Below are positions 2,657-14,089 of a stretch of DNA of 14,541 nucleotides, in pieces. The notes below the pieces were generated by a model. It was given only the letters and a program-made list of their open reading frames with translations. It was not told where the DNA came from and did not search any database. Within the stretch, counting starts at the first letter, position 1. Every line of letters begins with the position of its first letter. Origin of the DNA: Candidatus Eiseniibacteriota bacterium (GTDB lineage: Bacteria; Arandabacterota; Arandabacteria; JAGLYR01); NCBI GenBank assembly GCA_023132135.1, contig JAGLYR010000065.1, forward strand, positions 1-14,541. Direction: 5' to 3'. Both the position numbers and the translations under genes were made by a program.

Positions 2657-3871
2657 ATGGCGAAGTTTATCTACTGTGGTATCCGGCCCGACGGCCGGAG
2701 AATCGAAGCCGAAATCGAGGCGGGTGATAGCGATGCGGCCGCCAGGCAGCTGAGCTCGAGTGACGTCATCGTCACTGGAATCAGGCGCAAATCGAGATCG
2801 CTCGCGGATCTGCTGCATCTGCCTGCCAGGCCGCTCAAGGGGCAGAAGGTTATCTTCTTCGCCCGTTCGCTGGCCACCCTTCATCGATCGGGTGTCGCTC
2901 TGGCCGCGTCGCTCGAGTTGGTTGCCTCACAGGCGTCCGAGGAGGATGAGAAACAGGTCATTGAGGCGGTGCGTTCGGAGGTGATGAAGGGCAAGAGCCT
3001 GGCCGAGGCCCTCAGAAGCCAGGCTCCTGCGTTTCCGGATCTCCTTTCGGGCTCTGTGGAGGTGGGAGAAGCCTCGGGCGCGCTGGATACGACGCTGGAG
3101 TCGGCGGCGTCCCTCCTGGAGAGGGATGAAAAGGCAAAGACCGATCTGAAATCGGCGCTTCGGTACCCGGCGTTTGTCATGCTGGCCATCGGTGCAGCGT
3201 TGATTGTTTTGCTGACGCTGGTAGTTCCGAAATTCGCGAAATCCTATGCGGAGATGGGGACTGCGCTCCCGCTGCCCACAGTTCTGCTCCTATGGGTGAG
3301 TGAGATGCTCATCCACTATTGGTACTACCCGGCTCTTGGGCTGGTCTTCACGTGCGCGGGTGTGTGGCGGTGGCTCCAGACCGAGGCCGGTCGCAGGAGG
3401 ATGGATGCAATGGTCTTGAGCCTGCCTGTGATCGGCTCGCTGGCGGCCAAGTCTCTGACCTCCAGGACATGCGAGATCATGAGGGTGCTGTCCGCGGCGG
3501 GGTTGCCGGTTCTGGGCGCGCTGGAGATGACAGGCAGAACCATCGGCAACCGTCTCGTGGCTGCCGAACTTGCGGATATCCGCAACGCGGTGGCCGGCGG
3601 CAGCGACCTTGCCAGCCGGTTCCGGGGCAGTCGGGTGTTTCCACCGCTCGTGGCGGAGCTGATTTCTGTCGGCGAGCGTTCCGGCGCGCTGGAGGAAATG
3701 CTGGGAGCGGCAGCGGACTACTTTCGCGAGCAAACGGACAGTCAGCGAAAACGGATGACAGCGATGATCGAACCTACACTCACAATCTGCCTGGGATTAA
3801 TGGTCCTGGGGATCGCGTTGGCAATCTTCCTTCCCATGTGGGAATCGGTGTCACTCTATCGAGGAGGTTGA
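2657..3871 (+). CDS. Inner-membrane platform protein, GspF/PilC family
   Basis: This 404-residue protein is the inner-membrane platform that the ATPase acts on to insert pilins into the growing fibre. Two T2SF domains are visible, at about 64-190 and 265-395. Each has the typical pattern of a helical cytoplasmic bundle (FFARSLATLHRSGV at 67-80; the second copy begins near ILSLP-like residues VLSLPVIG) followed by a membrane segment. Membrane helices lie at about 172-191, 207-237 and 377-396, with the common LRYPAF and VVPKFA motifs around the first. The length matches the family norm. The gene starts 12 nt after the ATPase gene and its TGA stop overlaps the ribosome-site region of the next gene, which supports co-transcription. 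Confidence 0.95.
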   Translation: MAKFIYCGIRPDGRRIEAEIEAGDSDAAARQLSSSDVIVTGIRRKSRSLADLLHLPARPLKGQKVIFFARSLATLHRSGVALAASLELVASQASEEDEKQVIEAVRSEVMKGKSLAEALRSQAPAFPDLLSGSVEVGEASGALDTTLESAASLLERDEKAKTDLKSALRYPAFVMLAIGAALIVLLTLVVPKFAKSYAEMGTALPLPTVLLLWVSEMLIHYWYYPALGLVFTCAGVWRWLQTEAGRRRMDAMVLSLPVIGSLAAKSLTSRTCEIMRVLSAAGLPVLGALEMTGRTIGNRLVAAELADIRNAVAGGSDLASRFRGSRVFPPLVAELISVGERSGALEEMLGAAADYFREQTDSQRKRMTAMIEPTLTICLGLMVLGIALAIFLPMWESVSLYRGG

Positions 3872-3874
3872 TCG

Positions 3875-4216
3875 ATGAAGATCGGCAAGTGGTCGGACAA
3901 CCGGGGATTCACTCTCATTGAACTGGTGATGATCATCGTTGTGATCGGGATTCTGGCGGCGGTGGCTGTGCCCAAGTACGCCAGCATCTCCACCGACGCC
4001 GAGCGGGCGACGTGCCACGGCAAGCAGGGCGCGATTCACGCGGCCATTGCCATCTACTATGCCAGTCACCGCGAACTCGCAGACTCGCTCATGACGGACA
4101 TGTTTGCCAGTGGCGTGATTCCGACTTGCCCGGGAAGCGGCACAATGGTGTACACGCCGGCGGGGGATTCGACCTACACCCTGACGTGCACGGTGCATGG
4201 TAATCCGGACTATTAG
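3875..4216 (+). CDS. Small type IV pilin-like protein (pseudopilin 1)
   Basis: This 113-residue protein has a class III signal. An 11-residue leader ends in Gly, followed by FTLIELVMIIVVIGILAAVA, with the cleavage site after G11 and the conserved Glu at mature position 5. It should be processed and N-methylated by a prepilin peptidase, then packed into the fibre. The C-terminal part is short and has three cysteines (C47, C85, C104); C85 and C104 could form the C-terminal disulfide common in small pilins. It lacks the GspG AWG/GWG motif seen in the two later pilins. The start is firm: GAGGAGG at 3861-3867 lies 7 nt upstream, and the gene begins 3 nt after the platform gene stop. It could be a minor pilin or a small major pilin; sequence does not decide. 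Confidence 0.9.
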   Translation: MKIGKWSDNRGFTLIELVMIIVVIGILAAVAVPKYASISTDAERATCHGKQGAIHAAIAIYYASHRELADSLMTDMFASGVIPTCPGSGTMVYTPAGDSTYTLTCTVHGNPDY

Positions 4217-4370: not shown

Positions 4371-4441
4371 ACAATGTGCTGGTGCATTGTGAATGGCCTT
4401 GTTCATGCATAATGCAGCCTAGGCCTGAATAGCCCAGGCTA
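4371..4441. repeat. Palindromic tail with dispersed repeat copy 2 (CCTGAATAGCCCAGGCTA)
   Basis: The 18-nt string at 4424-4441 matches 19-36 with one mismatch. With the ten bases before it, it forms an imperfect hairpin: AGCCTAGGCC, loop TGAAT, AGCCCAGGCT (8 of 10 pairs). A second small inverted repeat, ACAATG/CATTGT, lies at 4371-4390. Together with the heptamer arrays these fill the 266-nt spacer between pseudopilin genes. A CATAAT hexamer at 4408-4413 has TTGTGA 15 nt upstream, too close for a convincing promoter. Confidence 0.5.
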
Positions 4442-4482
4442 TGATCCGGGCGATAGGGGCAGGGTTCCTGGAGCTATGGTCT

Positions 4483-4926
4483 ATGAACCGCAGCAGGCAT
4501 TCCGGTTTCACGTTGCTCGAACTGGTCATGGTGATCGTGGTCCTGGGAATAATGGCCGCGGTGGCTGTACCCAGGCTCTCCGGCATAACGGATGAGGCCA
4601 AACGGTCGGCGACCCTGAAAGAGATGAACGCGCTTCGCGAAGCCATTGCGGGGAACCCGTCCGGCATTTCGGGGGGACATGCTGTCCTGGGAGGCTACGA
4701 GGGGGATGTGGGCGCGCTGCCTTCATCTCTCCAGGATCTTGTCACCAAGCCCGGGGGAGTTGCTTCGTGGGATCGATACACCCAGACGGGCTGGGACGGG
4801 CCCTATGTCGACTCTGGCGGGGGATACTCTACGGATGCCTGGGGAAACGCGTACCAGTACAACTCCGGTGCGAGAACGATCACGAGCACAGCCGGCGGTG
4901 GAACACAGATCGTCGTGTACTTCTGA
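4483..4926 (+). CDS. GspG-type pilin (pseudopilin 2)
   Basis: This 147-residue pilin has an 8-residue leader ending in Gly, then FTLLELVMVIVVLGIMAAVA, with Glu at mature position 5. Past the helix it reads like the GspG major pseudopilin: ALREAIAGNP (50-59), DVGALPSSLQDLV (75-87), GWDGPYV (103-109) and TDAWGNAYQY (117-126), equivalent to the DPWGNPY loop that binds calcium in GspG. The Pro of that loop is Ala here. ATG 4483 is preferred because GGAG at 4470-4473 lies 9 nt upstream and it gives a normal leader; an upstream in-frame ATG at 4441 would add 14 residues and overlaps the repeat. It is probably the main fibre subunit, judging by its GspG likeness and compact size. It is a paralogue of the next gene. 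Confidence 0.92.
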   Translation: MNRSRHSGFTLLELVMVIVVLGIMAAVAVPRLSGITDEAKRSATLKEMNALREAIAGNPSGISGGHAVLGGYEGDVGALPSSLQDLVTKPGGVASWDRYTQTGWDGPYVDSGGGYSTDAWGNAYQYNSGARTITSTAGGGTQIVVYF

Positions 4927-4974: not shown

Positions 4975-6123
4975 ATGAAACGCTGGGGAGAAGCAGGATT
5001 CACGCTGCTCGAGCTGGTGATGGTGATTGTGATCATCGGCATCCTCGGGGCAGTGGCCGTTCGCAGCGCCGATCTGACTCTGGACCGGAACCGTTACTAT
5101 GCCACCGTGGAGGAGATGAAGACTCTCGGGCATGCGATAGCGGGGAATCCTGATCTCGTTAGTGCGGGAAGACGCACGGACTTCGGCTACGTTGGGGACA
5201 TGGGAAGTTTGCCGGGCAATCTGGACGCTCTCGTCACGAGCCAGGGCGGAACCTGGAACGGCCCCTATGTAGTGAATCCACTGGGAGAGGACGCGTACGC
5301 GTACAAAACCGATGGCTGGGGACAGGCATACACGTACCCGGTCAGCGGCGCGAAGTACAAGATCCTGAGCGGCGGTGGGGGAGAATCAATCACATACCAA
5401 TTCGCCAACTCCGAAGCGGAACTGACATCGAACACGGTCTTCGGAACAATCACGGACTGGAACGGATCTAACCCCACGGTCTCCGATCTTTCAAACATCA
5501 CCGTGACGGTACGTCATCCCAGCGGTGGATCCATGACCAGCACGAGCGCGACCCCGAGCGCCGGGGGAGTCTTCTCAATCACCGGGATTCCCATCGGAAT
5601 CCGCCGGGTGGTCGTGACGCACTCGGCTCTCGCGGATTCCGCAGTCAAGTACGCAACTGTCACTCCCGGGTGCAACGTGAGTGTGGAGCTCCGGCTGAAT
5701 GCAACCCTTCCCGGAACAGAAGCGGGGGGCGGCTCATCCACGTCGCTGGTCTACGTGCCGGGTACGGCGGAGGCGAAGGGAGGGGGAAACAGGGATATCA
5801 TTTTCTGGATCCAGAATGCTTCCTCGGCTCCTGTTGCCCTGACGAGTATGACACCGGTCTACACGGTGACCCCCACGGCGTACTACAAACAGATCAAGGT
5901 GGGGTTGACCAGCGTGTGGAGCCAGAACAACCCGCGTCAGGGCAGCGGCGAAGAAACCACATTCAACCAGACGAAAGCGATTGTCGGCGGCGGCTCGACC
6001 TGGATTGAGATCAAGGAGTTCAAGGACGCCCGTAGCGGCGGGAGCAACGTCAACATGGGCAACGTCGACTTCGAAATCACGTTCAGTGACGGCTCCGTTG
6101 TCGAGTTTACGACGGCTCCGTAG
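4975..6123 (+). CDS. GspG-like pilin with large C-terminal extension (pseudopilin 3)
   Basis: This 382-residue protein has an 8-residue leader ending in Gly, then FTLLELVMVIVIIGILGAVA. Its first 145 residues parallel pseudopilin 2: AIAGNP (54-59), YVGDMGSLPGNLDALV (72-87), WNGPYV (94-99) and TDGWGQAYTYP (112-122). About 155-245 resembles a carboxypeptidase regulatory-like beta-sandwich (VFGTITD, then GGVFSITGIPIGIRRVVV). About 255-382 is a second beta-rich region of no recognised family, rich in Gly, Ser and Thr, with a single Cys in the whole chain (C233). Most GspG proteins end near residue 150, so over 200 residues are added. It may be a tip or adhesive subunit, or may carry a surface-exposed module. 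GAGG and AGGGGG lie before the ATG. The PilM-like gene follows after 16 nt. Confidence 0.9.
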   Translation: MKRWGEAGFTLLELVMVIVIIGILGAVAVRSADLTLDRNRYYATVEEMKTLGHAIAGNPDLVSAGRRTDFGYVGDMGSLPGNLDALVTSQGGTWNGPYVVNPLGEDAYAYKTDGWGQAYTYPVSGAKYKILSGGGGESITYQFANSEAELTSNTVFGTITDWNGSNPTVSDLSNITVTVRHPSGGSMTSTSATPSAGGVFSITGIPIGIRRVVVTHSALADSAVKYATVTPGCNVSVELRLNATLPGTEAGGGSSTSLVYVPGTAEAKGGGNRDIIFWIQNASSAPVALTSMTPVYTVTPTAYYKQIKVGLTSVWSQNNPRQGSGEETTFNQTKAIVGGGSTWIEIKEFKDARSGGSNVNMGNVDFEITFSDGSVVEFTTAP

Positions 6124-6139: not shown

Positions 6140-7912
6140 ATGCGTTGGTCCGGTTTCAAGGCGCCGAAGATCAGCCTGGGCAGCACCGGCAAATGGAACA
6201 GCGCGCGGGCATTGTTCAAAGACGCGGCGCTCCCGATGATGGAGTTCCGGCCCCGGAGCGTGGTAGGGGTTGACATCGGGTCGGGGACAATCAAAGCGGT
6301 GCGGATCGAGTGCGACAAGGGGAGGGCGAGCGTTTCCCAATGGTCCATGCGGCAACATTCGGGTGGGAATGAGAAAAGGGAGACCGGTCTCCTTCGGCAG
6401 GATGTGATGGAGGTGCTCGAGGGAGTGGGAGGCGCGGGTGATCATCTTGCCCTCAACCTTTCCGGGCCGGAGGTTCGATTCCACCAGATCACGCTTCCCA
6501 GTCTTCGAGGAGAGGAACTGGAGAGCGCGGTCCAGTGGCAGGTGAAGAAAGAAATCGGGGATGAGGCTGCGGAGATCAACATCGCGTTCACCACGCAGGA
6601 AATCCAGACAGGCCTCCCGGAAGAGATGATCCTGGTCCTGGCAGTCTCCGTGCCGAGCGTGTTCATTCACACTGTGCTTGATGCCCTTGGAAACCTCCGG
6701 GTTCATCGGATTGGGGTAACAGCCGGAGCGTACGCTAATCTTCTGGCCGGATTCCACCCGGGGAAGGAGGGGGAGGGCTACGCCGTCGTCGATATCGGGA
6801 ATGACGAAACGTGGGTTTGCATTTTCCGCCGAGGCGGCCTTGTCTATGCCAGGCGGATAGGCGTAACCGGGCGGCATTTCACCAGCGCCCTGACACAGCC
6901 GGTCCAGACCCCGGAGGGACCACTCCGCTACTCCCGGGAAGAAGCAGAGAGGATAAAAAGCGAAAAGACTCTCAATATCGAGGACTTCGCCGGCCAGGGA
7001 GACTCGCCGGACTACTTTTCCGTCCTGCTGAGACCAGCGGTCGAGAAGCTCTCGGCCGAAATCGAACGAACTCTCGTACATTTCGTGAATGCCAACGTCG
7101 GGGATCTGATCGGGCGCGTGTATCTCTCCGGTGGGGGAGCTCTGCTGAAAGGGCTCCCCGAAGCCCTGAAGGGGCGACTGGGCATGCCTGTCGAGCGTCT
7201 CGATTTTGGCCGGCTCCATGCAGTGGACGAATCGGTCCTCCAGCCCATGGGGGAGGAGAGGCTGCAACTTGCCGGGGCGATTGGAAGTGCCCTGGGTTGG
7301 GCAAGTGGTGTCAATCTGGTGCCCGCGACCCGGAGGACGACACCCGCGTTCGCAGTGGCGCAGACGTTTCTGTTCTGGGGAGGGGCGGTCCTTCTGGCCA
7401 GTATCCCGTTCCTCACGGGACTTGCGGAACTTGGTGTCAGTGCTCTTGAAGCGGATGTAGTCCAGGCCGAGACCAGGTACGCGGCAATGGAGCCGCGGCG
7501 GGCCCGGCTTGGTGAGCTGGCTCTTGGTAGGGAGCGGTTGCAGGCCGGGCAGGCACTGGTTTCCGTTCTGCCGGAAGGACAGGATGTTCTTCCGCAGGTT
7601 CTCAAGGAACTGGGGGGACGTCTCCGCCCTGGCATGGTTCTCAACGGGCTTTGTCTCGAGGGAGGGAATGGCGGAGATCTCCCGAAGCTGTCGCTGGCAG
7701 GAGAAGTGCACGGTTCTACAAAGGAACTGGATGCCACATTGCTCGAGTTCCTTCTTGAACTCAGGGGGTTGCCCTTTTACCGCGATCCGGTGGTTACGCT
7801 GAAGAAGCAGATCCACCGGGATGGTGAGAAGGGGATTGAGTTTCAGATTACATGCGACCTGGACTGGGAGAAGCCCGGGCACAGCGACGCCGGCAGCGGA
7901 GTGTGGGAATGA
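6140..7912 (+). CDS. PilM-PilN fusion protein, GspL-like layout
   Basis: This 590-residue protein joins two parts that are usually separate in T4P systems. Residues 40-388 are a PilM-type actin-like fold with phosphate motifs VVGVDIGSGTIKAVRI (41-56) and VVDIGNDETWV (216-226) and an adenosine motif YLSGGGALLKGL (328-339). The PilN signature appears directly after, as GVNLVPA (390-396), then a membrane helix at about 406-427, a helical stretch to about 475 and a periplasmic alpha/beta domain to about 575. In T4P, PilN's INLLP tail docks on PilM; here the two are covalently linked, matching GspL topology. Residues 1-39 precede the PilM core and have no assignment. ATG 6140 has AAGGA 8 nt upstream; ATG 6236 is a weaker alternative. 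Its stop overlaps the next start. Confidence 0.92.
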   Translation: MRWSGFKAPKISLGSTGKWNSARALFKDAALPMMEFRPRSVVGVDIGSGTIKAVRIECDKGRASVSQWSMRQHSGGNEKRETGLLRQDVMEVLEGVGGAGDHLALNLSGPEVRFHQITLPSLRGEELESAVQWQVKKEIGDEAAEINIAFTTQEIQTGLPEEMILVLAVSVPSVFIHTVLDALGNLRVHRIGVTAGAYANLLAGFHPGKEGEGYAVVDIGNDETWVCIFRRGGLVYARRIGVTGRHFTSALTQPVQTPEGPLRYSREEAERIKSEKTLNIEDFAGQGDSPDYFSVLLRPAVEKLSAEIERTLVHFVNANVGDLIGRVYLSGGGALLKGLPEALKGRLGMPVERLDFGRLHAVDESVLQPMGEERLQLAGAIGSALGWASGVNLVPATRRTTPAFAVAQTFLFWGGAVLLASIPFLTGLAELGVSALEADVVQAETRYAAMEPRRARLGELALGRERLQAGQALVSVLPEGQDVLPQVLKELGGRLRPGMVLNGLCLEGGNGGDLPKLSLAGEVHGSTKELDATLLEFLLELRGLPFYRDPVVTLKKQIHRDGEKGIEFQITCDLDWEKPGHSDAGSGVWE

Positions 7913-8478
7913 CGGATCCTCTGCGCAAGCGTCGATGGCGCGTGGCCCTCTGTGTAGGAGGGTGCATAGCGATCTGGGTTACCTGGGTACTGCTGTACGC
8001 TATTCCAAGGTTCGGCCACATTGTCTCGATTTGGGATAACCTGGAAACAACAGAACTCAGCTGCCGTCAGCTGTCCAGAGAGACACGGAACCTTTCTGAG
8101 GATCTGGCGTTTCTCCGGCAAGCGGCGCGCGCGCTGGACAAGAGACTGGCGGCTTTGCCGCCACATGAGAGGATCCCGGACACGGCTCGCTACATTGCCG
8201 AGCGCGCCGGAGCCTGCGGCCTCGATGTGATTGATGCCGATCTCGATCTTGATGCGGCTCTCAGCTGCACACCTGCCGGGACCGGATCCGGGATATCGGA
8301 AGTGCCGTTCAGTCTGGTTGTAGTTGGCACCTACGGCGAAGTCGGGCGGTTTCTGGAGAGCATTGCGGAATCAGGAATCTTCATTCAGTACAGGTCCATC
8401 GAGATGGAACGTTTCCGCGTGGGTGCGGGTCAGCTCGAGGCTACCATCCTGATGAACCTGTTTGTGGGTGTGGAATAG
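7909..8478 (+). CDS. PilO/GspM-like inner-membrane protein
   Basis: This 189-residue bitopic protein has a short basic cytoplasmic tail, a membrane helix at about 11-32, a helical, probably coiled-coil segment at about 42-82 and a periplasmic domain of about 90-189 compatible with the PilO ferredoxin-like fold. The stretch VPFSLVVVGTYGEVGRFLESI (132-152) is the pattern most like PilO. PilO forms heterodimers with PilN and positions the secretin-linked alignment complex. The assignment rests on topology, length and gene order more than on strong motifs. The start is fixed by an ATGA overlap with the PilM-PilN gene, a sign of translational coupling; an upstream frame extension to 7852 lacks support. 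Confidence 0.82.
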   Translation: MTDPLRKRRWRVALCVGGCIAIWVTWVLLYAIPRFGHIVSIWDNLETTELSCRQLSRETRNLSEDLAFLRQAARALDKRLAALPPHERIPDTARYIAERAGACGLDVIDADLDLDAALSCTPAGTGSGISEVPFSLVVVGTYGEVGRFLESIAESGIFIQYRSIEMERFRVGAGQLEATILMNLFVGVE

Positions 8479-8492
8479 TTGGAGAAGCCTGG

Positions 8493-9020
8493 ATGAAACG
8501 CAGTTCCTGGAACTTGCGACAGATCACAATCGCTGTGATTCTTGTCATGACCATCATCTACAGTGCTGGTCAGCTTCTGGGGGGCGATTCATCCTCCGGG
8601 TCGAGGGAAGCGCTTTCGAGCAAGCGGGCACAGGACATCATAGCAGGTCCACTCGCGCCCTCGGAGCTGGATTGCCCCCCGGAACAGGTGGAAGCGCGGG
8701 CGGGACCACCAAAACCCGGTGAAGCGATTCTCTCAGAGGCCAGGCGGCTGCGCGCAAGGGGATGGAGCAACATCGATCCCTTCTCGGGAGTGAGCTGGCT
8801 GGGCGGTGACGACTCGGAGGAGGGGGAAGAAGAGAGCCCGACGGGGGACGTTGTTCTCCAGGCGACGTCGTACTCTCCTGCCGGGTGGCGAGCGGTCATC
8901 GAGGACAGAATCCTCGCGGTTGGAGACGAACTCATCGGCGGCCGGATTGCAGCGATTTCGGACGGGAGAGTTGTGGTGCGTGGGCCGGGTTGGGAGAAGG
9001 TGCTTCGCTTTTCTGAATAG
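8493..9020 (+). CDS. PilP/GspC-like protein
   Basis: This 175-residue protein has an uncleaved-looking membrane helix at about 11-28 rather than the lipobox of classical PilP, so its topology is closer to GspC. A low-complexity linker rich in Gly, Ser, Pro and acidic residues follows. DPFSGV (95-100) recalls the RDPF motif of PilP. Residues 119-173 form a compact beta domain like the GspC HR or PilP domain (VLQATSYSPAGWRAVIEDR, then VGDELIGGRIAAI). In both families this domain contacts the N-terminal domains of the secretin, whose gene follows 15 nt later. The start has GGAG at 8481-8484, 8 nt upstream. Function is inferred mainly from domain pattern and position. Confidence 0.82.
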   Translation: MKRSSWNLRQITIAVILVMTIIYSAGQLLGGDSSSGSREALSSKRAQDIIAGPLAPSELDCPPEQVEARAGPPKPGEAILSEARRLRARGWSNIDPFSGVSWLGGDDSEEGEEESPTGDVVLQATSYSPAGWRAVIEDRILAVGDELIGGRIAAISDGRVVVRGPGWEKVLRFSE

Positions 9021-9035
9021 AGAGGGGACTGAGAC

Positions 9036-10310
9036 GTGCGATTTCCAGTCTTGGGTGTCTGCATCTGGATTCTGGCGCTTGTGCCACAGGGGATCTGTGG
9101 ACAGCTGAGTACGATGGACAGGCTTAGCGGCGAACTTCCCGGCGATCTGGGAAACCGGCCCGTGACGCTGGATATCCGCAATCTGGAACTCCAGAGCGCC
9201 CTGAACCTGATTGCCCAACAGCACGGACTCAACATTGTGTGTGGAGATGAGGTGAGCGGTCAGGTCACGGGGCATTTCGATGAAGTGCCTCTGGGGGTAG
9301 TTCTGGACGCGCTGCTCAGTGCATGCAGTTGCAGGTACGAGAGGGTCGGCGATGTTGTTGTTGTGACGCCTGCGGATGAGGGTGTTCCCCGCTGGGGAAC
9401 AACCCGGGTCATCGAACTGAACCACGCGAGGGCGGACAAGGTTCGCTCGGCGGTGGAGAAGATGCTCTCGCCCCGCGGCTCCATCCAGTTGTACCCCGAG
9501 CAGGAAGAACAATCGGGGATGGAAGAAGGCGGGCCGGAAGCAACCGTCCTGATCATCCACGATGAACTGCGGCGGGTGGAGGAGATTGCTTCGGTGGTTG
9601 CCGAACTCGACAAGGTTCCCAGGCAACTGTCCATTGAGGTCAGGCTGGTGGAAACCGTGATCGGCAACGAGCTGGATCTGGGCTTCGATTGGAACGCCAC
9701 TGCCACCGTGGACGGAAACCCGGAGCCGCAGTCCCTGCCGCTGGACAGAGATCGATTCACTTTCGGCACGTTGTCTCTGGAGGAATTCCAGGCGGTCCTC
9801 CGGACTCTGGACGAGGACAACAATTCGAAACTGATCTCTAATCCCAGAATCACCACCCAGGAGAACCGGGAAGCCAGGATCAGTGTGGGAACGATATTCC
9901 CGGTGCGGACGGTGAGCCGGTTCAGTGAAGCGGGGATCACGCAGGACCTCTTGACCTACGAGGACAAGGAGATCAATATTGAGCTCGCCGTGACCCCCCG
10001 GGTGGATGACAACGGTCTGATCTCCCTTGTGGTCACCCCTGTTGTAGAGGACATCATCGGCTGGACAGGGGATTTCAAGGATCAACCGATTACTTCCAAG
10101 CGGAGTCTCTCGACACGGGTCACCGTTCGCAACGGCGACACGGTGGCCATGGGCGGCCTGATCAAGGAATCCGATATCGAGACGGTCCGCCGCGTGTGGC
10201 TTCTGGGCCGAATCCCCATCCTCGGTCGTCTCCTTTTCACAAATGTGATTCACAAAAAGGAAACGACAGATATGCTCATCTTCATTACTCCGCATATTCT
10301 GGAAGACTAG
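9036..10310 (+). CDS. Secretin, PilQ/GspD superfamily
   Basis: This 424-residue protein should form the multimeric outer-membrane pore. A signal peptide covers about 1-22 without a clear lipobox. An STN-like N0 domain spans about 42-112 (LDIRNLELQSALNLIAQQHG), one N1-type domain about 121-195, and the secretin core about 196-422. Core landmarks are KLISNPRITTQENREARISVG (265-285), TVAMGGLI (369-376) and LLGRIPILGRLLF (389-401). It is shorter than most GspD proteins because only one N-domain follows N0, and it lacks an evident pilotin-binding S domain. The start is a GTG with GAGGGG 8 nt upstream. It is the last gene of the cluster and converges on the next gene, with 29 nt and no visible terminator between the stops. 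Confidence 0.94.
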   Translation: MRFPVLGVCIWILALVPQGICGQLSTMDRLSGELPGDLGNRPVTLDIRNLELQSALNLIAQQHGLNIVCGDEVSGQVTGHFDEVPLGVVLDALLSACSCRYERVGDVVVVTPADEGVPRWGTTRVIELNHARADKVRSAVEKMLSPRGSIQLYPEQEEQSGMEEGGPEATVLIIHDELRRVEEIASVVAELDKVPRQLSIEVRLVETVIGNELDLGFDWNATATVDGNPEPQSLPLDRDRFTFGTLSLEEFQAVLRTLDEDNNSKLISNPRITTQENREARISVGTIFPVRTVSRFSEAGITQDLLTYEDKEINIELAVTPRVDDNGLISLVVTPVVEDIIGWTGDFKDQPITSKRSLSTRVTVRNGDTVAMGGLIKESDIETVRRVWLLGRIPILGRLLFTNVIHKKETTDMLIFITPHILED

Positions 10311-10339: not shown

Positions 10340-12532
10340 CTACTCACCCCTGAATAACGCCCGAAACCGCGCATCTCCGCGTAGCGGTTCCAGGTCCGGA
10401 TCCCGCTGCATGAAGGTGAATTCAACGAAGCCGTCTTCCACGGCCCGCTCGAGCCAATCGAGCGCCTCGGCCCTCCGGTTCTGTCTGCTGCGGATGCACG
10501 CGATGTTGTAGCAGGCGTCGACCATCCGGGGATCGAGCTGGACGGCGCGCTCGTACCAGTGCGCGGCTTCGTCGAGGAGACCCAGTCGTGTGAGGGTATG
10601 GCCGAGGAAAAAGGGCGGATCGGGGTTCAGGGGTTGGAGTCGTGTGAGTTCCTTGAGATGCGGAACCGCTCCCTCGTAGTTTCCGGTCTGCCGCAGAGTC
10701 TCAACCAGAAGGTAGAGCACCCGCGTGTTGTCCGGATCCTGCCGGAGAATGTCCTCCAGAATGGGGACAACAGCATCCGGCCTGCCACGATCCATCTGGA
10801 GCCGGACGAGTTCGGCCAGAGCATCCTCATGATCCGGATTCACTTCCAGCGCCCGTTCGTATGCCTGCACTGCCCGCCCGACGTCGCCGCGCAGCCGGTA
10901 CATGCGGGCCAGGCCCAGATGCGCGTTCACGTAGGCGGGGTCAAGCTTGAGAGCGTCCCGGAAAACCGAGGCCGCCCTCTCATATTGCTCCAGCCGGACG
11001 TATGCCGCGGCGAGGTTCACGTGGCGCAGGGGACTCCCGGGTTCGATCCTCAGCGTCTCCAGAAAAGCATCGAGCGCACCCCCTGGATCCCCGGATTCGA
11101 GCAGCGCCCAACCCGTACGGGTGTGCCGGCTGGCCAGCTGGCATCGATTGAAGGCCTCCATCTGACTCCTGGGATTTGGAAGCATTTGCCCCTCGGCGTC
11201 CCGGGATCCGCTCATGCCTGAAAGGTAACCCAGCGATGCCAGTCGTTCCCGGGTGGTCTCATCTCGCGGGACTTCGGTTGGCCTGCAGGCTTCGCTTGCG
11301 GGGAAGGACGCTATGAGCTCATCCAACTGCTCTACGAGGACTTCCTCGATGGAAAGGCCTGTTCCGGAGAGGTTGGTTGTTTCCCCGCGGTCACGGATGA
11401 GGTCATACAACTCCGGTTCCGGCGCGCGGATGTATTTCCACATCACCGTCCGTATTCCCTGAAGATGGCTCCAGCCATAGCTCAGTCGCGGGCGGTAGGT
11501 CTCGCAGTAAGCAGCGTCCGGTCTTTGCACCGGGCTCCCCTCGAAGATAGGGGAGAGGTCGGATCCCTGGAAGTCCTCGGGAGTTTTCACGCCCAGGAGC
11601 GGGAGAACCGTGGGAGCGATGTCCACCAGACTCACCTGGGTAAAGACTCGCGCTGCCCGGGGACAGACCTCCGGGCATGTGAAGATCATTGGAACGCGCA
11701 ATGTGGAGTCGTAGATCAGAAGGCCGTGCTGCGATTCCTCATGGTCCATGAGGCCTTCGCCGTGATCGGACGTGAGGACGATCAGGGTGCGTCCCGGAAT
11801 CTCGAAGGCGCCAATGGCGTCCAGGAAGCGACCGATCTGGTAATCGGTGTAGGCGATCTCGCCATCGTAGGGGCTCCCGGCGTAGAGGGAGTCGAAGGGT
11901 GGTGGCGGATCGTAGCAGGCGTGTGGATCGAAAAGGTGAAGCATGACGAAGAAGCGGTTCTGCCTGTTCCGCTTGATCCAGCTCAGAGCATTGCGTGTAA
12001 CCGCATCAGCCCGCCGTTGGGTTGTGCGCAGCTCCTCGGCCAGCGACAGGTACTCAAGATTACAGGGAACGTAGTCGCTCTCGAAGTGGTCGTCGTAGAT
12101 GTGGAAGCCCTGTCCCAATCCGTAGATCGAGTCCATCACAGCCGATCCCAGGAACGCGGCGGTACTGAAGCCCTCCTCCTCCAGAACCTCCGCCAGCGTG
12201 ACCATGTCCTCCGCCAGCGTGAACAGTCCGTTGTCCCGGATCCCATGCGTCGGGGGATAGGTGGATGTCAGGAGAGAGGCAAAGGCCGGGTTGGTGACCG
12301 GAACCGGGGTAATCGCTTGCTCGAACAGGGTTCCGTTGCGGGCCATCCCGTCAATCACGGGTGTCTGGATGCAGGGGTACCCGTAGCATCCCAGGTGATC
12401 GGACCTCAGGGTATCGATCACGATGAGAACGAGGTTCGTAATCCTGGCTTCGGGTTTGTGCGCGCAGCCCGGGGAGAGAAATGCAGGGACCAGAAAAAGG
12501 ACCAGAAGAATGCTCAGGTTGCGACCGGTCAT
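10340..12532 (-). CDS. Sulfatase-superfamily lipoprotein with TPR tail
   Basis: This 730-residue protein starts with a lipoprotein-type signal (hydrophobic 6-19, then LSPGC with C23). Residues 31-390 are an alkaline-phosphatase/sulfatase-fold domain with metal ligands likely at D40, D256 and H257, plus H204 (FDPHACY) and H269. The formylglycine signature C/S-x-P-S-R is replaced by T80-N-P-A-F in PVTNPAFASLLTS, so T80 is the likely nucleophile. That points to a phosphodiesterase or phosphotransferase-type activity rather than a formylglycine sulfatase; the substrate is unknown. About 466-700 holds roughly six to seven TPRs (for example LGLARMYRLRGD, ALEVNPDHEDALAEL), a protein-binding scaffold. 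It faces the periplasm. Its own promoter lies at 12583-12611. No functional tie to the pilus cluster is shown. Confidence 0.9.
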   Translation of the reverse strand: MTGRNLSILLVLFLVPAFLSPGCAHKPEARITNLVLIVIDTLRSDHLGCYGYPCIQTPVIDGMARNGTLFEQAITPVPVTNPAFASLLTSTYPPTHGIRDNGLFTLAEDMVTLAEVLEEEGFSTAAFLGSAVMDSIYGLGQGFHIYDDHFESDYVPCNLEYLSLAEELRTTQRRADAVTRNALSWIKRNRQNRFFVMLHLFDPHACYDPPPPFDSLYAGSPYDGEIAYTDYQIGRFLDAIGAFEIPGRTLIVLTSDHGEGLMDHEESQHGLLIYDSTLRVPMIFTCPEVCPRAARVFTQVSLVDIAPTVLPLLGVKTPEDFQGSDLSPIFEGSPVQRPDAAYCETYRPRLSYGWSHLQGIRTVMWKYIRAPEPELYDLIRDRGETTNLSGTGLSIEEVLVEQLDELIASFPASEACRPTEVPRDETTRERLASLGYLSGMSGSRDAEGQMLPNPRSQMEAFNRCQLASRHTRTGWALLESGDPGGALDAFLETLRIEPGSPLRHVNLAAAYVRLEQYERAASVFRDALKLDPAYVNAHLGLARMYRLRGDVGRAVQAYERALEVNPDHEDALAELVRLQMDRGRPDAVVPILEDILRQDPDNTRVLYLLVETLRQTGNYEGAVPHLKELTRLQPLNPDPPFFLGHTLTRLGLLDEAAHWYERAVQLDPRMVDACYNIACIRSRQNRRAEALDWLERAVEDGFVEFTFMQRDPDLEPLRGDARFRALFRGE

Positions 12533-12685: not shown

Positions 12686-14089
12686 CTAGCGATACATCGC
12701 TTTCACACCACTCCAGGTGGTTTCCTCAACGGCCGAAGGGCCACCACCGATGATGTTGATCGTCAGCAGGAACTCGCCGTAGGAGTAATAGGCATAGCCA
12801 TCGGCGATGAGGTAGAAGATCCCGCCGTCTACGCTGGCCCAGGAGATTTCCTCGAAGCCGTAGGCGCTGTCACTTCCCACCACGCAGCTGCCGGGGACAT
12901 CATCGCAGTCGGTCACCAGGTACAGGGACGCGTCGAAGGCGCCGTCCATGCTGGCGTAGAGCGAACCGCCGGGCAGCAGAACAATGCGGTACACCACATC
13001 GGGACCCTCTGCGCCGTAGCCGGTGCAGCCGCCGTAACCGGGATCGTAGTCGTTCGTGGCGCCGGTTGTGGTGTCGTTGCAGAAGATATTCACATCGCCG
13101 CAGAAGGTGATGGCCTCGTCACAGGTGTCGTGCGGAGGGAAGTCGCAGTCCTGCGATTCGCACGGTCCGACCGCGATATCGAGGGTGAAATCGCCTTCCT
13201 GTTCGTTCCATCCGTCCACGATGATATAGTACAAGCCGCCCTCATCACTGCAGCAAGTGACGGACTCGCCGGAACCCCAGATATCATCACCGGCGCAGCA
13301 CGTGTTCCAGATATCGTCGCAGTCGGTCACGATGTAGAGGACGGTGTCGAAGTTGCCGTCGATCGAGGCAGCGACCTGCTCATGGGCCGCGAGCTGGACG
13401 TAATAGACCACATCCGCCCCGGTCGAGCCGCAGCAGGTGCAGGCGCCCGAGTCATAGTCATTGATGGAACCAACGGTGGTTCCATCAATGCTGGATCCAT
13501 CAAATACCTCAATGGCTTCCCCGCAGGTGCCATTGTTCTGCGCGGTGGGGCAGGGCTCGACAAGGACGTCGAAGTAGAAATCGCCCCAGCTGCCTGCGGC
13601 GTAGCCGTCGCAGATGATGTAGTAGATTCCACCTTCCTCGCTGCAGTAGGTGATAGACTCCGGATTGCCGCTGTCATCACCTACCACGCACGTTCCCACC
13701 ACGTCACCGCAGTCGGTCACCATGTAGAGCGAAGCGTCGAAGTAGGAAACCGGGTCCATTGTCGCAATGACACGGTACCCGGGAGCGAGATCGACGAGAT
13801 AGGCGATGTCTGGACCGGCAGCCTGGAAGCCGGTGCAACCTCCGGAGCCCGGATCGTAATCGTCCAGCGCCTCCGCCGTGCTTGCCACTCCCGAGAAACC
13901 AGCCGAGACGTCGATAGCGCCTTCGCACTGATCATTCACGGGTGGATCCAGAGTCCCGCGCCCGTCGAACACTTCTACCTTCATCTCATGGGTTTTCTTG
14001 ATCCCGGAATCGCCGAATGCAACCGACGTTCCAATGAGCAAGACACCAGCAACTGCGATCATCACAAACCAGGAACTGCCACGCATCAT
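12686..14089 (-). CDS. Secreted Cys-rich protein with three PPC-like repeats
   Basis: This 467-residue exported protein has a signal peptide (about 1-26, ending SVAFG). Three repeats follow at about 51-180, 184-310 and 319-447. Each has a Cys-led start, NDYDPG or a variant, GCTG or CTCC, a GPDVVY-type strand, MDGxFDASLY, VTDCDD, a Cys plus GDD, and GGxYYIIxDGY. The layout fits bacterial pre-peptidase C-terminal (PPC)-like beta domains used as carbohydrate- or surface-binding modules. The protein is strongly acidic, which fits calcium binding. No catalytic domain is seen. It ends in VEETTWSGVKAMYR, a possible C-terminal tag. The start ATG has AGGGGG 6 nt upstream. The role is unknown; it may be a surface protein or a substrate of the secretion machine encoded alongside. 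Confidence 0.82.
   Translation of the reverse strand: MMRGSSWFVMIAVAGVLLIGTSVAFGDSGIKKTHEMKVEVFDGRGTLDPPVNDQCEGAIDVSAGFSGVASTAEALDDYDPGSGGCTGFQAAGPDIAYLVDLAPGYRVIATMDPVSYFDASLYMVTDCGDVVGTCVVGDDSGNPESITYCSEEGGIYYIICDGYAAGSWGDFYFDVLVEPCPTAQNNGTCGEAIEVFDGSSIDGTTVGSINDYDSGACTCCGSTGADVVYYVQLAAHEQVAASIDGNFDTVLYIVTDCDDIWNTCCAGDDIWGSGESVTCCSDEGGLYYIIVDGWNEQEGDFTLDIAVGPCESQDCDFPPHDTCDEAITFCGDVNIFCNDTTTGATNDYDPGYGGCTGYGAEGPDVVYRIVLLPGGSLYASMDGAFDASLYLVTDCDDVPGSCVVGSDSAYGFEEISWASVDGGIFYLIADGYAYYSYGEFLLTINIIGGGPSAVEETTWSGVKAMYR

Follow-up and report, generated by a model that had tools for sequence, protein, structure and literature searches.

A recurrent PilM-PilN fusion with a conserved docking-type peptide at its joint in a T2SS-like type IV filament locus of a Candidatus Eiseniibacteriota bacterium

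In classical type IV pili, PilM and PilN are separate proteins, and the INLLP-type peptide that forms the N-terminus of PilN binds PilM. The window, by which we mean the whole stretch of 14,541 nucleotides analysed here (contig JAGLYR010000065.1 of a Candidatus Eiseniibacteriota bacterium), contains a gene that a preliminary description read as PilM and PilN joined in one polypeptide. This raises the question of whether the fusion is genuine, what kind of machine it serves and whether it says anything about the origin of GspL, the corresponding subunit of the type II secretion system (T2SS).

The fused gene and its locus

The gene (6140-7912, + strand) is a single open frame of 590 amino acids without an internal stop. 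It starts with an ATG at 6140 preceded by AAGGA, and translation may instead begin internally at 6236 or 6239. Behind an N-terminal extension, the protein comprises a PilM domain (about 36-389), the motif VNLVP (391-395, within GVNLVPA at 390-396), a membrane helix (about 404-428) that coincides with the hydrophobic maximum following the PilM domain, a coiled coil and a PilN-like domain (about 483-575). The stretch 162-183 is equally hydrophobic, but it corresponds to a strand and a helix within the PilM fold. When we searched the protein with profiles, Pfam PilM_2 matched residues 43-385 at 79 bits, well over its cut-off of 27, while PilN reached a sub-threshold 13 bits (cut-off 22.8) over residues 487-573, and the PilN part was assigned by alignment to relatives that do match PilN. 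Residues 483-573 are predicted to form a helix-strand-strand-helix-strand-strand succession compatible with a ferredoxin-like domain. Among NCBIfam models, pilM scored 88 bits, under its cut-off of 133, and the Amuc_1101 family model scored 65 bits over residues 85-492, spanning the joint. A PilM domain above the curated cut-off and a PilN-like membrane and periplasmic part thus share one frame, with an INLLP-type peptide placed after the PilM domain and before the membrane helix, and fused homologues align with the protein throughout, so that both the fusion and the docking-motif peptide at its joint stand as they were first described. The nucleotide motifs typical of PilM are also kept, namely phosphate-1 (GVDIGSGTIK, 43-52), phosphate-2 (DIGNDET, 218-224) and the adenosine motif GGG (331-333). 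The contig matches two other contigs of the genome in GC content (0.599 versus 0.603 and 0.612) and in tetranucleotide make-up (r 0.946), which makes contamination unlikely.

The neighbouring genes, all on the + strand, form an apparent operon with the order receiver, GspE/PilB, GspF/PilC, three pilins, PilMN, PilO-like, PilP/GspC-like and secretin, an order which had been called T4P-like and which indeed resembles that of type IV pili, and that of T2SS alike. The first gene encodes a receiver-only response regulator (508-891; Response_reg 102 bits) and is followed by that of an extension ATPase of GspE/PilB type with an MshEN domain (917-2644, exact start uncertain; T2SSE 444 bits, MshEN 61 bits), for which PilB scored 589 and GspE 572 bits, each under its cut-off. 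The GspF/PilC platform protein (2657-3871; T2SSF 178 bits) scored higher with GspF than with PilC (322 versus 246 bits), again under cut-off. Next come a type IV pilin-like protein of 113 amino acids (3875-4216; N_methyl 31 bits), a GspG-like pseudopilin of 161 amino acids (4441-4926) matching N_methyl and T2SSG as well as typeII_sec_gspG at a below-cut-off 57 bits, and a large pilin of 382 amino acids (4975-6123) whose GspG-like N-terminus and CarboxypepD_reg-like (Ig-like) domain were seen as sub-threshold Pfam matches; the last may be a minor pilin that sits at the tip or binds cargo. Downstream, the end of the fused gene overlaps that of a PilO/GspM-like protein (7906-8478, start uncertain; PilO 25 bits, cut-off 22). 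The secretin of the PilQ/GspD family (9036-10310) scored 137 bits with Secretin, over its cut-off, and 196 and 175 bits with PilQ and GspD, each under cut-off. The gene between these two encodes a PilP/GspC-like protein (8493-9020), named by its position, which equals that of unassigned small genes in the fused-gene loci L063, L064 and L067, and by a weak, non-significant similarity (GspC_delta 11.8 bits, E 0.15). Beyond the secretin, on the opposite strand (10340-12532), a sulfatase-family domain is joined to a TPR array in a protein of 730 amino acids.

ATPase, platform protein and secretin did not reach the PilB, PilC and PilQ cut-offs that would mark a type IVa pilus, and the T2SS models stayed under theirs as well. 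Since the two sets of models score closely for the ATPase and the secretin and all remain below their cut-offs, the locus is best named a generic PilT-less T2SS-like type IV filament system. There is no PilT gene within the window; the PilT genes of this genome are on contigs C223 and C59, and either product could act on the system in trans. On C223, genes for an extension ATPase, PilT and PilC together with split pilM and pilN make up a classical type IV pilus locus. A second T2SS-like cluster was found on C39 (3085-9622; locus L079) with pilins, split pilM and pilN (the latter with MKNINLIPP), pilO and a secretin; its ATPase and platform protein may be encoded on C238. A receiver-like gene stands after the secretin on C39.

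Taken together with the domain make-up of the protein, these neighbours indicate that the product of the gene is very probably the coupling subunit of the PilT-less system in cytoplasm and membrane, with PilM and PilN in one chain. The PilM part would lie under the inner membrane, where it is expected to bind ATP and to contact the ATPase. The PilN-like part would cross the membrane once, and its periplasmic partner would be the PilO-like protein, itself joined to the secretin by way of the PilP/GspC-like protein. The system as a whole presumably takes part in secretion or in pilus assembly. Compared with the split PilM and PilN of type IVa pili (Thermus thermophilus, Pseudomonas aeruginosa, Myxococcus xanthus), the protein has in common the actin-like fold, the nucleotide motifs, the INLLP-type peptide, the single membrane helix and the PilN-like periplasmic part, and differs in being one chain, in its weak PilN profile and in the absence of PilT from the locus.

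Recurrence, descent and the relation to GspL

The idea that this architecture is unusual did not hold. When 372 sampled genomes were searched with a profile of fused proteins, 20 of them, the window's own included, had a full-length match without a stop; they belong to 17 families. Seventeen fused homologues and the window protein could be aligned end to end, and PilM_2 matched all 18, PilN 14 and T2SSL 4 (weakly), with NF045709 also matching 18/18. Natural fusions are known from the literature too (PMC6916266, PMC11870540, PMC10191384), for example in Clostridioides difficile (PMC6916266) and in most type IV pilus clusters of Campylobacterota, where pilM and pilN are fused (PMC11870540). The window's gene is therefore an ordinary, well-preserved case of a known, recurrent PilM-PilN fusion. 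It is one gene as in C. difficile and most Campylobacterota, and probably as in the Amuc_1101 family of Akkermansia and its kin, but it belongs to another lineage, has a shorter linker than the fused pair L073/L074 and lies in a T2SS-like neighbourhood. A search of named genomes with the window protein gave no match, and the same search with GspE returned mostly split PilM/PilN loci. In about ten sampled genomes, two class-mates among them, pilM and pilN are adjacent, in the same frame and separated by a stop; fusion and fission can thus differ by one base, which may explain the recurrence.

To place the window protein, a careful tree was built from 63 PilM domains, with GspL left out as too divergent. 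The protein, on a long branch (3.0), fell in a group of ten rows that are all fused (UFboot 93, SH-aLRT 96, under the strict support line), and L073/L074, two fused proteins close to the Amuc_1101 family, were placed elsewhere among split PilM. A single origin of all fused forms was rejected (AU p 1.6e-7); when L073/L074 were set aside, one clade of the remaining fused forms was not rejected (p 0.096). On these trees, fusion or fission took place more than once. Of the proposed "intermediate or independent path", independence therefore survives in this sense alone, and the intermediate part is not supported.

The same tree bears on a recent fusion within this genome, derived from a split pair like that of C39 and independent of the other fused forms. 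Pairing the window with its own C39 PilM was not rejected (p 0.37), and the fused gene was absent from all seven class-mates examined. However, the best tree, the linker length, the similarity of the secretin and the receiver-first gene order all point to the fused group instead, and we consider a recent fusion unlikely. The secretins nearest to that of the window are those of L067, L064 and L065, which are also fused-gene loci, in a compared set biased to such loci. In the relative L063, the order receiver-E-F-G-pilins-MN-O-P-D is like that of the window, and this distant relative with a fused gene also has its receiver gene (14515-14898) before GspE.

The link with GspL deserves closer attention, since PulL/GspL has already been described in the literature as a PilM-PilN fusion and the PilMN complex has been named an orthologue of GspL (PMC4471445). 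GspL/PulL of the T2SS likewise has an actin-like domain, a membrane helix and a periplasmic domain in a single chain, in the same order as in the window protein, and the neighbours at our locus are GspF-like and GspG-like with no PilT beside them. At the equivalent joint, GspL shows an LNML/ISLL-type peptide, namely DMLHG, LNMLWG or ISLLSG in the sequences of Escherichia coli K-12, two Gallionellaceae and Thiobacillus. The weak T2SSL matches in 4/18 fused proteins and an hhalign match to GspL (E 1e-5), local and limited to 104 columns, could also be read as signs that the protein is a true GspL with ancestral motifs kept, or a genuine intermediate between PilM/PilN and GspL. In contrast, T2SSL (PF05134), GspL_C (PF12693) and TIGR01709 (gspL) gave no match to the fused protein at E values up to 1 in Pfam and NCBIfam, and the PilM profile was far ahead, so that plain GspL is not what the profiles describe. 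For each of the two structural models described below, the 50 best PDB matches included no GspL chain, which is compatible with a relation between GspL and the fused protein. The GspL examined are 387-446 amino acids long and the phosphate motifs were absent from all four sequences (phosphate-1 from those of E. coli, Gallionellaceae and Thiobacillus), whereas the fused protein, with its motifs present, lacks the degeneration expected of a GspL. The contrast with GspL that was first drawn consequently holds for the nucleotide motifs and fails for the peptide at the joint, which GspL has too. Because the fused forms are not one clade, being fused cannot alone place the window on the GspL branch, and with the all-fused clade rejected and a peptide at the joint of GspL itself, a step towards GspL is not supported. 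We regard either version of the GspL reading as quite improbable, and the picture of the origin of GspL is unchanged by this gene.

A sequencing or assembly error that erased a stop between adjacent in-frame genes, for which one base could suffice as the in-frame split pairs of other genomes illustrate, is most improbable, since frame, layout and linker length are common to homologues in several families and the C39 pair of the same genome would yield a far longer linker.

The peptide at the joint

The fusion has kept its docking peptide conserved. Computed over 14 rows including the window, no other five consecutive columns beyond the PilM core are as well conserved as those of VNLVP ([VI]-[ND]-L-L-P), which carry 1.81 bits per column where the mean is 0.93. 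The linker that leads from the PilM domain to the motif is short, about five residues in the natural fused group, and equal in the window, L062-L067 and L069/L070; it is longer in other fused lineages. An engineered P. aeruginosa construct, PilM:PilN(1-12) (5eou), likewise has PilM followed by INLLP in one chain, but its end (LALR-SFDSSGMAR-INLLP) includes a nine-residue spacer. It is not new for a docking peptide to lie within a single chain, given the LNML/ISLL-type peptide at the same joint of GspL, and by their position and resemblance the GspL peptides may dock as that of PilN does.

Structure models were consistent with a PilM fold. Superposed on 2ych_A, the PilM of T. thermophilus, the PilM domain of the full-chain model (pLDDT 66) reached Z 32.6, and residues 34-402 folded alone (pLDDT 80) reached Z 33.7, at 3.0 A for 325 residues; an alignment mixing PilM and PilN had misaligned the PilN rows and was left out of the folding. 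Residues 390-393 have a pLDDT of about 70 and those after them, the membrane-proximal part included, less than 50, the joint beyond 394 being of low confidence in both models. In the shorter model, DSSP assigned a bridge at 394-396, and the range matched to 5eou reaches residue 398, which at best hints that 390-396 might dock.

The INLLP-type peptide at the joint has probably kept its binding to PilM, in a groove either of its own chain or of a neighbouring one. A more specific idea, which we hold to be doubtful, is that about five residues of linker may not let the peptide reach the groove of its own chain, so that INLLP would dock in the PilM of the next chain and the resulting domain swap would lock a cytoplasmic ring. 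If that were true, the LNML/ISLL peptide of GspL would be the same device, and one docking rule would cover type IV pili, fused systems and T2SS. A conserved joint peptide, repeated fusion or fission and a similar peptide in GspL in any case make the PilM-PilN contact worth comparing across type IV filament machines.

A C-terminal tail elsewhere in the window

The window's most unusual feature has nothing to do with the fused gene. A protein with an apparent signal peptide encoded at 12686-14089 (- strand) ends in VEETTWSGVKAMYR (12686-12715). The corresponding pattern, [ST]-W-[SG]-x-[IV]-K-x-[LM]-[YF]-R-COOH, was found in 31 copies in the genome and its reversed control in none; at the positions left free by the search pattern, [ST] occurred at -10 in 25 of 25 and [SG] at -8 in 24 of 25. 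No NCBIfam or Pfam model matches the tail and our literature search found no paper on it. Many of the carriers have signal peptides, as judged by eye, and the tail looks like a C-terminal tag, so far undescribed, for sorting or anchoring. We considered a tie to the fused-PilMN system and rejected it: the tag is present in class-mates that lack the fused gene, and it is missing from the genomes in which the nearest fused systems lie. With tag and fused gene so differently distributed, the exporter of the tagged proteins is not the fused-PilMN system. The tail itself recurs in each of the seven class-mates, with 9-23 copies, and several other families carry up to 60; elsewhere it is rare or absent.
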